In this document: positions 6,551 to 30,573 of the stretch, in pieces | Position numbering within the stretch: position 1 is the first letter of the stretch | Layout of the letters: each line of letters begins with the position of its first letter | Assembly: GCF_945890115.1 (NCBI RefSeq) | Contig: NZ_CAMDCK010000010.1 | Coordinates: forward strand, 1-33,305 | Length of the DNA: 33,305 nucleotides | Direction: 5' to 3' | DNA from: Sphingorhabdus sp. EL138 | Lineage (GTDB): Bacteria > Pseudomonadota > Alphaproteobacteria > Sphingomonadales > Sphingomonadaceae | The notes under the pieces: generated by a model | The model's input: the letters and a program-made list of their open reading frames with translations, nothing else | Database searches by the model: none | Told to the model about the DNA's origin: nothing | Program-made: the position numbers and the translations under genes

Positions 6551-6639
6551 GTCATCCTCGCGCATGGGGATCCATGGCCTGCGGCGGAAGTTTAAAATGA
6601 CGGGTCAGACCATGGACCTCCGATCACGTCGGGGGTGAC
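6551..6639. repeat. Paired inverted palindromic repeats (REP-like, GTCAT...CCATGG family)
   Basis: The left unit 6551-6581 (GTCATCCTCGCG... ending ATCCATGGCCTG) and the right unit 6606-6639 (CAGACCATGG... ending GGGGGTGAC) face each other across about 24 bp. Both resemble the units at 27863-27969 and those flanking the GIY-YIG gene at 29329-29694. The pair lies just after the nitronate monooxygenase gene. Within the 323-bp gap to the next gene I see only this element and the repeat at 6713-6819. Confidence 0.75.
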
Positions 6640-27862: not shown

Positions 27863-27969
27863 GTCATCCCCGACTTGATCGGCGATCCATGGTCTGACCC
27901 CAAGTTTTAAGGTGGGTAGCGGATTAGCTGAACACGTAGACCATGGATCCCCGCCTTCGCGGGGATGAC
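27863..27969. repeat. Paired inverted palindromic repeats (REP-like, GTCAT...CCATGG family)
   Basis: The left unit 27863-27898 (GTCATCCCCGAC... GATCCATGGTCTGAC) and right unit 27938-27969 (AGACCATGGATCCCC... CGGGGATGAC) face each other across about 39 bp between the convergent ampG and folC genes. The right unit has the same CGCGG-type palindrome as those flanking the GIY-YIG gene. Confidence 0.8.
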
Positions 27970-27974
27970 AAAAT

Positions 27975-29315
27975 CTAGTCAGGGACCTGATCGTTCAGCC
28001 GTAACACTTCGCCAGCCAAATATAGCGATCCGCAGATCAGGACATTGGCGGGCGCTTGCTGCCCCGCCAACTGCCCGAGCGCGGTTACAATGTCGCCTGC
28101 TGTCCGTGCGTCCGTGATGTGCAATTTGGAACGCGCGAGGTCGCACAATTCGCTTGGCGTATGATGTTCATGCCCCGCTATTGGCACTGCAATCAGCGTT
28201 TCAATTTTGTGCGCAAATGGGGTGAGGAAACCAAGCGCGTCCTTATTCTGCAACATGCCGATGATGACAATCACGGGCGCGCCGTTTTCCAGTGTTTTGG
28301 CAATCGCTGCCCCTGCGTCGGGGTTATGGCCACCGTCCAACCAAATATGTGAACCATCGGGCAATAATTCGGTCAGGGGGCCTGCCGCCAGTAATTGCAT
28401 CCTTGCGGGCCAGCGCGTCCACTCCATCGCGGCGGACAAGGCGGCTTCGGGAACCGAAATTGCCGTTTGATGCCGCAGCATCGCCACCGCCAAGGCCGCA
28501 TTATCGACCTGATGCGCGCCCGGCATGCGGGGCAGGGGCAGGTTCAACTTTCCAGCCGCGTCACGATAATGCAGGCGGCCATCATATACCGCCGCATCCC
28601 AGCCTTCGCCGCGCGCATGTAACACGGCCTTGTGCAACGATGCTTGCGCGGCAACGGTGTTTGCCATGGATGCGCTATATTTCTGCGTTACTAAAGGCGA
28701 ACCGGACTTGGCAATGCCCGCCTTTTCAAAGGCGATCCGGTCCAGCGGCGGCAACTCGGGCACGCCGTCCTCTGCCGCCAACAAAAATGCCTCATGATCC
28801 AACCCCAGTGAGGATATGCCGCACGCTACGGGCTTGGTCAGAACATTGGTGGCGTCCAACCGTCCGCCAAGGCCAACTTCGACAATGCAGGCATCGGCCT
28901 TCGTCCGCGCAAAGGCGCAGAAGGCAACGGCGGTGGTGACTTCAAAAAAGCTCGCCTCCAACCCTTCTGCATGGTCGAGAACTTCGGACAGGAGTGCAGA
29001 CAAAGTAAAATCATCAATCAACCGCCCTGCCACCCGGATACGTTCGTTAAAGCGCACCAGATGCGGGCTGGAGTAAACATGCGCAGTCAGCCCCGCCGCC
29101 TCAATCGCGCCACGCAGAAAGGCACAGGTCGAACCTTTGCCGTTGGTGCCAGAAACATGGAAAACGGGCGGGAGATGATGATGCGGGTTGCCAAGCCGAT
29201 CCAGCAAGGTTGCGATGCGTCCAAGGCCCAATATGTCCTTGCCTGGCGACAGCATCGTCAACCGGTCAAGCTGCGCCTGAACGGCAGGGTCAGTGGAGGT
29301 CGCGTGGTCAGGCAT
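27975..29315 (-). CDS. folC: Bifunctional folylpolyglutamate synthase/dihydrofolate synthase
   Basis: FolC adds glutamate to dihydropteroate and then to tetrahydrofolate, trapping folates in the cell. From ATG 29315 it has 446 residues. The P-loop is VSGTNGKGST (54-63), followed by YSSPHLVRFNERI, EVGLGGRLDATNV, SLGLDHEAFL (Mg/substrate His), FEKAGIAK and, in the C-terminal domain, WLDGGHNPDAG. AAAGGAC lies eight bases before this ATG. An upstream in-frame ATG at 29331-29333 falls inside a REP-like palindrome and is considered fortuitous. In alphaproteobacteria folC usually follows accD directly; here a 366-bp GIY-YIG cassette (29329-29694) separates them, which may affect co-transcription. 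Confidence 0.95.
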   Translation of the reverse strand: MPDHATSTDPAVQAQLDRLTMLSPGKDILGLGRIATLLDRLGNPHHHLPPVFHVSGTNGKGSTCAFLRGAIEAAGLTAHVYSSPHLVRFNERIRVAGRLIDDFTLSALLSEVLDHAEGLEASFFEVTTAVAFCAFARTKADACIVEVGLGGRLDATNVLTKPVACGISSLGLDHEAFLLAAEDGVPELPPLDRIAFEKAGIAKSGSPLVTQKYSASMANTVAAQASLHKAVLHARGEGWDAAVYDGRLHYRDAAGKLNLPLPRMPGAHQVDNAALAVAMLRHQTAISVPEAALSAAMEWTRWPARMQLLAAGPLTELLPDGSHIWLDGGHNPDAGAAIAKTLENGAPVIVIIGMLQNKDALGFLTPFAHKIETLIAVPIAGHEHHTPSELCDLARSKLHITDARTAGDIVTALGQLAGQQAPANVLICGSLYLAGEVLRLNDQVPD

Positions 29316-29328
29316 GCGCTTGTCCTTT

Positions 29329-29694
29329 GTCATTCCCGCGCACGCGGGAATCCATGGTCTGCTTTATCGGTTCAAATCGAACCATAAGTCGCGCCATTGG
29401 GGGTTGCTTCGTTCAATGAGTTCTATTTTCCATGCGCGGTTCCACTTTTTCATCTGCTTCTCGCGCTTGATTGCCTCTCGGACATCGGCATATGGTTCAA
29501 AATGTACCAGCCTTTTGGTCCGGTTGCGCGCGGAAAAGCCGGGGCGTAAGTTTTCCCGATGCTCGTAAGCTCGACGCACTAAGTCGTTGGTCACACCGAT
29601 ATATGTGGTGCCGTTTCGCTGACTGGCCATGATGTAGACATAGTAAACGGGTGACATATTTCAGACCATGGATTCCCGCTTTCGCGGGAATGAC
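29329..29694. mobile_element. GIY-YIG nuclease cassette bounded by 33-bp inverted palindromic repeats
   Basis: The left repeat is 29329-29361 and the right repeat 29662-29694. Read outward-in on opposite strands they agree in 31 of 33 positions (GTCATTCCCGCG, then CAC versus AAA, then GCGGGAATCCATGGTCTG). Each repeat is itself a palindrome (TTCCCGCG/CGCGGGAA). The single ORF between them stops 2 bp from the left repeat and starts 4 bp from the right. Related paired repeats without a gene occur at 6551-6639 and 27863-27969. The unit interrupts the usual accD-folC adjacency. No target-site duplication is obvious. That the unit moves is inference. Confidence 0.6.
29364..29657 (-). CDS. Small GIY-YIG domain endonuclease
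   Basis: The 97-residue protein is a single GIY-YIG nuclease domain of the UvrC-N/YhbQ-like group. The two defining motifs are YVYIM (Y6-x-Y8) and TTYIGVTNDLVRRAYEHR, with YIG at 19-21, the catalytic Arg at 28 or 29 and His33. The metal-binding Glu is E66 in AIKREKQMKKW, and SNPQWRDLW closes the protein as in its relatives. Such nucleases cut DNA with one active site; the biological role of this small chromosomal group is not established. There is no ribosome binding site in the four bases between the repeat and the ATG, so translation may depend on readthrough coupling or be weak. It is flanked on both sides by inverted palindromic repeats. Confidence 0.92.
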   Translation of the reverse strand: MSPVYYVYIMASQRNGTTYIGVTNDLVRRAYEHRENLRPGFSARNRTKRLVHFEPYADVREAIKREKQMKKWNRAWKIELIERSNPQWRDLWFDLNR

Positions 29695-29718
29695 AAAAGT
29701 GGTTTTTGCGAGTTTGGG

Positions 29719-30573
29719 TCAAGCCGCCTTTTTCTCCGGCGCGAGATAGCCGATGAGTTGCGACAACACACCGCGTAGGTCGTGGCGATGCGTGACCATG
29801 TCGATCATGCCATGCTCCAACAAATATTCGGCGCGCTGGAAACCTTCGGGTAGTTTTTCACGGATGGTCTGTTCAATCACGCGCTGTCCAGCAAAGCCAA
29901 TCAAAGCGCCGGGTTCGGCAATCTGCACGTCGCCCAGCATCGCATAAGATGCGGTGACGCCGCCCGTGGTCGGGTCAGTCAGCACCACGATATAGGGCAA
30001 TCCTGCATCGTGCAGCATCTGGATCGCTACGGTTGAACGCGGCATTTGCATCAGGCTCAATATGCCCTCCTGCATGCGCGCGCCGCCAGCAGCGGTGAAG
30101 ATGACATAAGGGCATTTGGCGCGGATTGCGGCCTTTACTGCGTCGATGAACGCTTCACCAACCGCCATGCCCATGGATCCGCCCATAAAGGCAAAGTCTT
30201 GGACGCTGACAACAACCGTCTGGCCGTCGACTTTGCCTTTGGCCGAAATCATCGCATCGGTCTCGCCCGTGGCAAGGCGCGCGGCCTTTATACGGTCGAC
30301 ATATTTTTTGGTGTCTCGGAACTTCAACGGGTCTTCGCCAACGACGGGCGGTTTGAGAATGTCATAGCTTTCGTCATCGAACAGAGCGGCAAAGCGTGTC
30401 GCCGGGCCAATGCGGCCATGATGATCGCATTTGGGGCAGACAGACTGATTTTCCTCAAATTCCTTAAGGAAGATCATCGCCTGACAGCCCTTGCATTTAT
30501 GCCAGAGCGTTTCAGCGGTCTCGCGCTTAGTGATGAAGGGAATGGCGTTACGGACGCGGGTGACCCAGTTCAT
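29719..30573 (-). CDS. accD: Acetyl-CoA carboxylase carboxyltransferase subunit beta
   Basis: AccD with AccA transfers the carboxyl group from biotin to acetyl-CoA, giving malonyl-CoA for fatty acid synthesis. The 284-residue protein has the N-terminal zinc ribbon with Cys27, Cys30, Cys46 and Cys49 (CKGC and CPKC), then the crotonase-like core with [23 protein letters not shown] and [17 protein letters not shown], the oxyanion-hole region. [28 protein letters not shown] (shown in part) is family-typical. The ATG is 2 bp from the trpA stop, so accD is expressed with the trp genes, the standard alphaproteobacterial arrangement. A GIY-YIG cassette follows in place of folC directly. Confidence 0.97.

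Follow-up and report, generated by a model that had tools for sequence, protein, structure and literature searches.

Locus structure and the REP family in the window genome

What kind of element is formed when a small nuclease gene lies between two inverted REPs with almost no base to spare on either side? The question is raised by the accD-folC region of the window, which is the whole stretch of 33,305 nucleotides from Sphingorhabdus sp. EL138 (genome G000) analysed here. A 97-residue GIY-YIG nuclease is encoded on the minus strand at 29364..29657, as evident from its open reading frame and a Pfam match to PF01541 (E 1.8e-15). On the stop-codon side of this gene we found an outward-tagged CGTC-type REP with an inner CCATGGTCTG box (29326..29361, plus strand; core 29332-29351), and on the start-codon side its inverted partner (29662..29697, minus strand; palindrome core 29672-29691). 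The two arms are 36 nt each and 94% complementary; between arm and gene there are two bases on the stop-codon side (left arm) and four on the ATG side (right arm). The tight framing noted in a preliminary description of the window proved exact to the base, the 33 bp given there being the inner part of the 36-nt arms. Each arm has a TGTC tag at its outer end, an 8-bp stem with a 4-base loop, a CCA tail and then an inward TGGTCTG, and the REP cores of the unit are direct as well as inverted repeats. No target-site duplication was seen by eye outside the arms, and accD-folC offered no clean pre-insertion sequence. Both neighbouring genes are on the minus strand, accD at 29719..30573 (open reading frame and accD match) and folC at 27975..29333 (open frame). 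Since the first ATG of folC falls inside the left REP, translation probably begins at the following ATG (first base 29315), which would give a protein starting with MPDH.

The same repeat family is dispersed in the rest of the genome. Exact ATTCCCN8GGGAAT cores were found at 19 sites in the 2.31-Mb G000 genome (reversed control, 0), and the inner box GGRATCCATGGTCTG, with up to two mismatches, was found at 29 sites (control, 3), a few of which look like chance matches. At least eight gene-less inverted pairs marked by the inner box are present in G000. Two of these lie within the window, at 27863..27969 and, in a more degenerate form, at 6551..6639 (recognised by tag and inner box; no strand assigned). 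Like the gene-bearing pair, both carry TGTC tags and an inner CCATGG box, so their earlier assignment to the repeat family of the window unit was correct. Several of the gene-less dimers in G000 are heterodimers, in which a REP with a 4-base loop is paired with a REP with a 5-base loop.

G000 contains three copies of the GIY-YIG nuclease, together with a fourth GIY-YIG domain in a 716-aa frame that we take to be UvrC. The window copy is flanked by class a REPs, as defined below, and CTGAACTTGTTTCAG REPs are found around the C5 copy. The third copy (L048, C10:69085-69267), located approximately 40 kb from the window copy, is framed by a different REP type with a CCCCAGC stem (score 27.5), and its sequence suggests that it is probably degenerate and frame-broken. 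We also observed a palindrome of the core pattern at C4:86163-86182 (L008, L049), approximately 350 bp upstream of the GIY-YIG domain in the uvrC-like frame.

Comparison with known repeat systems

CGTC REPs were surveyed in 2013 by Di Nocera et al. (PMC3733652). In the portions of that survey used here, they occur in five phyla, mostly in alphaproteobacteria, include the Neisseria dRS3 repeats (as CGTC-1) and are apparently without a dedicated transposase; no tyrosine transposase gene is described there as flanked by them, the few associations with other transposases are regarded as fortuitous, and REPs in repair genes are remarked upon. The published REPs and the window REPs have in common the C/TGTC tag, the 8-bp stem, the 4- or 5-base loop and the CCA tail, and both families form HH dimers that include homo- and heterodimers (PMC3733652, same portions). 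In the gene-bearing pair of the window, TGTC tags at both outer ends were accompanied by 8-bp stems, 4-base loops and CCA tails in an inverted dimer, within the 8-9 bp and 4-5 bases expected of CGTC-tagged REPs. The main difference is that the published CGTC REPs, in those portions, have no associated transposase gene (PMC3733652), whereas here a nuclease gene lies inside the dimers. The gene framed in 99 of the 110 loci described below is this nuclease, whose role is putative and which we do not equate with a transposase.

As in the window, RAYT/REP systems and REPINs show REPs beside the gene of the system as well as gene-less inverted pairs (PMC3116915, PMC2817692, in the passages used here). 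RAYT/REP systems have a Y1 HUH transposase and GTAG tags (PMC3733652, in part), whereas the window unit has a GIY-YIG nuclease and CGTC tags. The nuclease gene is flanked by REPs of its own class, as a RAYT gene is; its product belongs to PF01541, no match to Y1_Tnp (PF01797) was found in G000, and the unit contained neither a Y1 HUH transposase nor a GTAG tag. The parallel that had been drawn with RAYT systems, with a GIY-YIG nuclease replacing the Y1 enzyme, therefore stands. An insertion sequence has a transposase between its inverted ends; here the ends are likewise inverted, and the enzyme is a nuclease with a putative role. A homing endonuclease gene sits in the site that its product cuts in empty alleles; here, nine relatives have fused REPs at accD-folC, and another locus has REP-free empty sites.

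The preliminary description knew of no formal account of such a pairing, and on this point it probably has to be corrected. Site-specific single-stranded nucleases (Ssn), reportedly presented by Chenal et al. in Nat Commun in 2025, are said to be GIY-YIG nucleases that cut a dispersed Neisseria repeat, and their role is reportedly the modulation of natural transformation. Ssn is reportedly a small single-domain GIY-YIG protein tied to a dispersed repeat, and the window protein is likewise small and single-domain. With this reported work, the pairing of nuclease and repeat would be known in kind; neither gene-less dimers, nor a match of classes in different hosts, nor a mobile unit of the form REP-gene-REP is known to be part of that account. 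Our search, which covered mainly open-access papers, found no paper on the pairing itself, the mobile unit, the lineage matching or the copy-number tracking. The CGTC REPs themselves are already described in PMC3733652. A survey of the GIY-YIG superfamily classifies bacterial GIY-YIG proteins (PMC1564403); in the text consulted, the word 'flank' is absent, and where 'repeat' appears, DNA repeats beside the gene are not the subject.

Framing of homologous genes by inverted REPs

Homologues of the window protein were present at E 1e-8 in 273 of 397 family genomes, in a patchy pattern. A locus was called framed, by a test blind to the repeat sequence, when an inverted repeat scoring at least 16 was found between the two 150-base flanks. 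By this measure, 99 of 110 family loci were framed: 28 of 30 taken from the best matches, the window copy included, and 71 of 80 picked among the matches listed, so that the sample was not random (the 80 were mostly in rank order, and the last 20 favoured genomes with several copies). The expectation that homologues generally have flanking palindromes was upheld by these counts. Shifted windows at the same loci gave 0/1048 and 0/1770 (0/2818). In 80 named loci from many phyla, 49 of the 75 that were testable were framed, compared with 29 of 2482 shifted windows. When heuristic ORF ends replaced the match edges, 81 of the 110 nuclease genes were framed, compared with 2 of 120 neighbouring ORFs and, for the accD control, none of 29 testable loci. 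No pair reached the threshold at 11/110 family homologues and 26/75 named loci, or at 29/110 family homologues with ORF ends. REPs are frequent and mostly intergenic, and it might be argued that they merely gather in the spaces beside small genes. The shifted-window (0/2818 family, 29/2482 named), neighbouring-ORF (2/120) and accD (0/29) controls, all lying far below the nuclease loci, and the class match described below lead us to reject such chance framing, to which we attach almost no probability.

The orientation and form of these REPs were largely uniform. Tags pointed outward in 86 of the 99 framed loci and inward in 5; complete dimers were present on each side in 4, and 4 were unclear. 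The tags of 97 hairpins from framed loci were CGTC in 31, GTCA in 19 (a count that reflects a 7-bp stem call, which leaves the A outside the stem) and TGTC in 12, the rest being other or cut, and the commonest combinations of stem and loop were (8,4) in 37, (7,4) in 28 and (8,5) in 24. A homologue in N. gonorrhoeae, putatively a member of the Ssn family, shows 58.9% identity to the window protein; dRS3-like CGTCATTCCCGC repeats flank it on both sides, and the nearer of them begins 2 bases past the stop codon.

Other replicons were also considered. The plasmid collection contained 33 matching records, some of them plainly chromosome-sized, and of seven stretches chosen from these (L165-L171), five scored at least 16, with L167 and L171 below. 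At L168 (Azospirillum lipoferum 4B AZO_p3), the nuclease gene lies between sufB and sufC with complete REP dimers on both sides. Planktothrix agardhii p1 (L171) has a homologue located between the gene of an MmeI-type restriction enzyme and drmA (DISARM), with only a weak inverted pair (score 14). The phage collection contained no match to the nuclease at E 1e-5, and a reading as a phage gene was rejected on this ground.

Correspondence between nuclease lineage and REP class

Three REP classes were distinguished after the sequences had been seen: class a is GTCA-tagged with a CCCGC-type stem and a loop of 4, class b has a loop of 5 and mostly a CTGAA stem, and class c has a start of the GTGCTCC or GTTCCCC type. 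L018 and L172 were put in class b by loop length, and their REP resembles the loop-5 partners in the G000 dimers. Among the 110 loci, 13 had no class call and 3 were unclear, and the tree comprised 94 nuclease proteins. REP class changed only 4 times on this tree, compared with a mean of 38.9 and a minimum of 33 in full shuffles. Shuffles within the 13 genomes that have copies of different class gave a mean of 14.9 and a minimum of 6, with 0 of 2000 at 4 or fewer. Because 4 changes are set against at least 6 in the within-genome shuffles, REP class goes with the nuclease lineage and not with the host. Joint inheritance of the gene with its flanking REPs would by itself give part of this match, and to that extent the match would also arise if the gene were passive cargo, as considered below.

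The sequences of hairpin and protein were also compared. Across 76 elements, 35 stem pairs had both bases changed from one REP of an element to the other, and 34 of these are Watson-Crick in either REP, as expected if each hairpin matters and not the duplex arm; in another 20 stem pairs a single base differs, so that these are non-Watson-Crick in at least one REP. In the protein, window residue 73, which lies in a K-x-W-x-R stretch of the nuclease, separates the classes best: most class a proteins have N or R there (39 of 49), most class b proteins H (18 of 23) and most class c proteins K (18 of 22). The best reading of the lineage-class match would be that the nuclease recognises the REP.

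Dispersed REP number across genomes

REP numbers were compared in 149 family genomes, with only the stronger match rows entered and with class thresholds fixed after looking at known loci. Among the 39 genomes that encode a class b nuclease, the median number of class b REPs was 11 (one zero); among the 110 that do not, it was 0 (77 zero; p 6e-16, kinship uncorrected). Similarly, class a REPs had a median of 13 in the 29 genomes with a class a nuclease, none of them zero, and of 1 in the 120 without (45 zero; p 1.4e-6, kinship uncorrected). Cross-class links were weaker but present (p 0.016 and 0.0076, kinship uncorrected). With one genome per genus (94, from hand-made lists), and after two copies had been deducted from each genome with the matching nuclease, the p values were 6e-8 for class b and 0.006 for class a, and 0.042 and 0.064 across classes. 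The number of dispersed REPs thus tracks the matching nuclease, and the proposed relation between palindrome number and presence of the nuclease was recovered in the 149 family genomes.

We also considered whether a Y1 (RAYT-type) transposase mobilises the unit in trans, as REPs of other bacteria are paired with RAYTs and a Y1_Tnp match is present in 56 of the 397 family genomes. Class b REPs are slightly more numerous with Y1_Tnp (medians 4.5 versus 0; one genome per genus, p 0.096), but the numbers of class a REPs and of both classes together do not follow it (p 0.77 and 0.59), so that Y1 transposases do not detectably track these REPs. G000 has no Y1_Tnp match, and the consulted portions of PMC3733652 report no case of CGTC REPs on both sides of a tyrosine transposase gene. 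A Y1 enzyme acting in trans is therefore very improbable, and we reject a RAYT as the main driver, given its absence from G000 and REP numbers that do not follow Y1_Tnp.

Some REP populations occur apart from a matching gene. Of 93 genomes without a class a or class b nuclease, 27 still have at least 10 REPs of these classes; a homologue at E 1e-15 was found in 15 of these 27 and in none of the other 12. Such genomes speak against a strict pairing of nuclease and REP. One genome rated 100% complete (G134) has an orphan population of 90 class a REP matches, with no nuclease homologue at E 1e-8 or 1e-15 and no Y1_Tnp match.

Mobility and the accD-folC junction

To what extent does the unit behave as a discrete element? 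For 38 pairs of related nuclease genes (at least 76% identical) at unrelated loci, both ends of the homologous stretch were located, using the coordinates of the first locus in every pair. Of these 76 ends, 43 fell within 10 bp of the outer REP end (32 of them within 5 bp) and 33 lay more than 10 bp away; they are not independent, because the pairs have loci in common. In particular, the match between L200 and L229 spans 406 bp and, on L200, runs from one outer tag to the other; the sequences beyond it are unrelated, and L229 has another REP further out than the matching stretch. The L200 site reads as lying between what are presumably ruvB and ruvA. The L217/L229 locus is occupied in G209 and G160, and the same-genus genomes G282 and G313 have short REP-free junctions with no nuclease homologue in the stretch examined; three other searched genomes matched one side only.

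At accD-folC, folC lies directly downstream of accD in all 30 same-genus loci examined (L050-L079; an accD match was present in 42 genomes, 30 of which are covered here), and the nuclease gene is present there in G000 only, which agrees with the earlier view that the unit interrupts a normally adjacent gene pair. Outside these 30, G389 has a homologue approximately 60 bp from its own accD, and the two proteins of G389 are placed next to the window protein in the tree's leaf order. The junction collects REPs: the loci besides G000, assigned by eye, comprised a fused palindrome tagged on both sides in 9, a half REP in 4, pairs or remnants of other REP families in 13 (e.g. CACCCTGAACTTGTTTCAGGGT) and none of these in 3. 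Because a normal REP has one tag, the fused form would best be read as the scar of a former dimer. The fused and half REPs of relatives look like deletion scars, so that loss is as visible as gain at this junction. Since the fused state is not confined to a single clade of the accD tree and the G389 homologue lies beside accD, early presence with repeated loss is as likely as recent gain. The prediction of empty sites in relatives was accordingly borne out at the L217/L229 locus, in two same-genus genomes; at accD-folC, relatives mostly have REP scars or other REPs.

These observations bear on whether the gene is passive cargo, moved between its REPs by homologous recombination or annealing of dispersed REPs and encoding a nuclease without recognition. 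REP cores that are direct as well as inverted repeats suit such a process, and the fused accD-folC palindromes would be the expected remnant of a core-to-core deletion. We nevertheless regard this reading as improbable, since one protein family is framed in many phyla, the number of dispersed REPs follows nuclease class in a way that joint inheritance does not predict, and a gene-bearing unit is found where two comparators have no REP at all.

Judged from sequence comparison, the locus is a mobile REP-gene-REP unit with a REP-matched nuclease, because of the framing, the class match, the tracking of REP number, the related genes at unrelated loci and the empty sites. The mobile unit of the preliminary description is retained on the same grounds, with homology between related genes at unrelated loci often stopping where the outer REPs end, and with REP-free empty sites.

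Conservation of the nuclease and a possible host function

The DNA and protein comparisons revealed that the nuclease is under purifying selection, with dN/dS of 0.06-0.22 in 14 of 16 homologue pairs (undefined in two). Tyr8, Tyr19, Arg29, His33 and Glu66, presumably the catalytic set of GIY-YIG enzymes, were invariant in 54 proteins from many phyla. A search of NCBIfam with the window protein gave no family. The PDB sequence search gave a WD-40 chain at 1e-7, of which no stretch passed alone, and otherwise weaker matches, among them two UPF0213 structures (E 0.0013 and 0.0016). UPF0213 proteins and E. coli YhbQ are small single-domain GIY-YIG proteins, like the window protein; the K-12 yhbQ region gave no tblastn match to the window protein at E up to 1, and YhbQ was rejected as a close relative.

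The nuclease may serve the cell, for example by limiting or shaping the uptake and recombination of single-stranded DNA, with REPs as target marks that another process spreads. This follows the role that Neisseria Ssn reportedly plays in the uptake of single-stranded DNA, and the reported Ssn work speaks for it, as do the purifying selection and the REPs that persist without the nuclease in some genomes. Additionally, L025, L034 and L042-L044 carry the nuclease before a gene that reads, we assume, as lpdA, which suggests long residence. However, the nuclease gene is itself enclosed by the repeats and accompanies them at different loci, its presence is patchy (273/397 family genomes), and Y1_Tnp, the type of enzyme known to mobilise REPs, shows no significant association with the number of these REPs. 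A host function is possible, although we hold it to be rather unlikely as the main account, and it is compatible with the reading preferred here.

Proposed mechanism and implications

We consider it likely that the locus is a gene-bearing dimer of CGTC-type REPs whose nuclease recognises its own REP class. Two CGTC-type REPs, with tags outward and tails inward, frame the small GIY-YIG nuclease gene, and REPs of the same family are also scattered as gene-less dimers. The nuclease is predicted to recognise its own class of REP hairpin and might cut it when single-stranded, as may occur while DNA is replicated, repaired or taken up. The unit and its gene-less relatives could then be copied, inserted or deleted by host repair or by annealing of one REP to another. 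The nuclease may in this way drive the movement of the unit. To our knowledge, no GIY-YIG nuclease joins DNA, so movement would need help from the host.

More tentatively, and with somewhat less than even confidence, the nuclease might be the long-missing dedicated enzyme of CGTC REPs, forming a second REP system without HUH chemistry, in which residue 73 would help to determine the hairpin that is recognised. A class-specific hairpin nuclease, together with host repair, would then spread gene-bearing and gene-less REP dimers in many phyla. Framing, class match and copy number name one candidate enzyme for CGTC REPs, and the question of their dedicated enzyme becomes testable in laboratory strains. 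The matched pairs of nuclease and hairpin may also be a source for rules of single-strand cutting.
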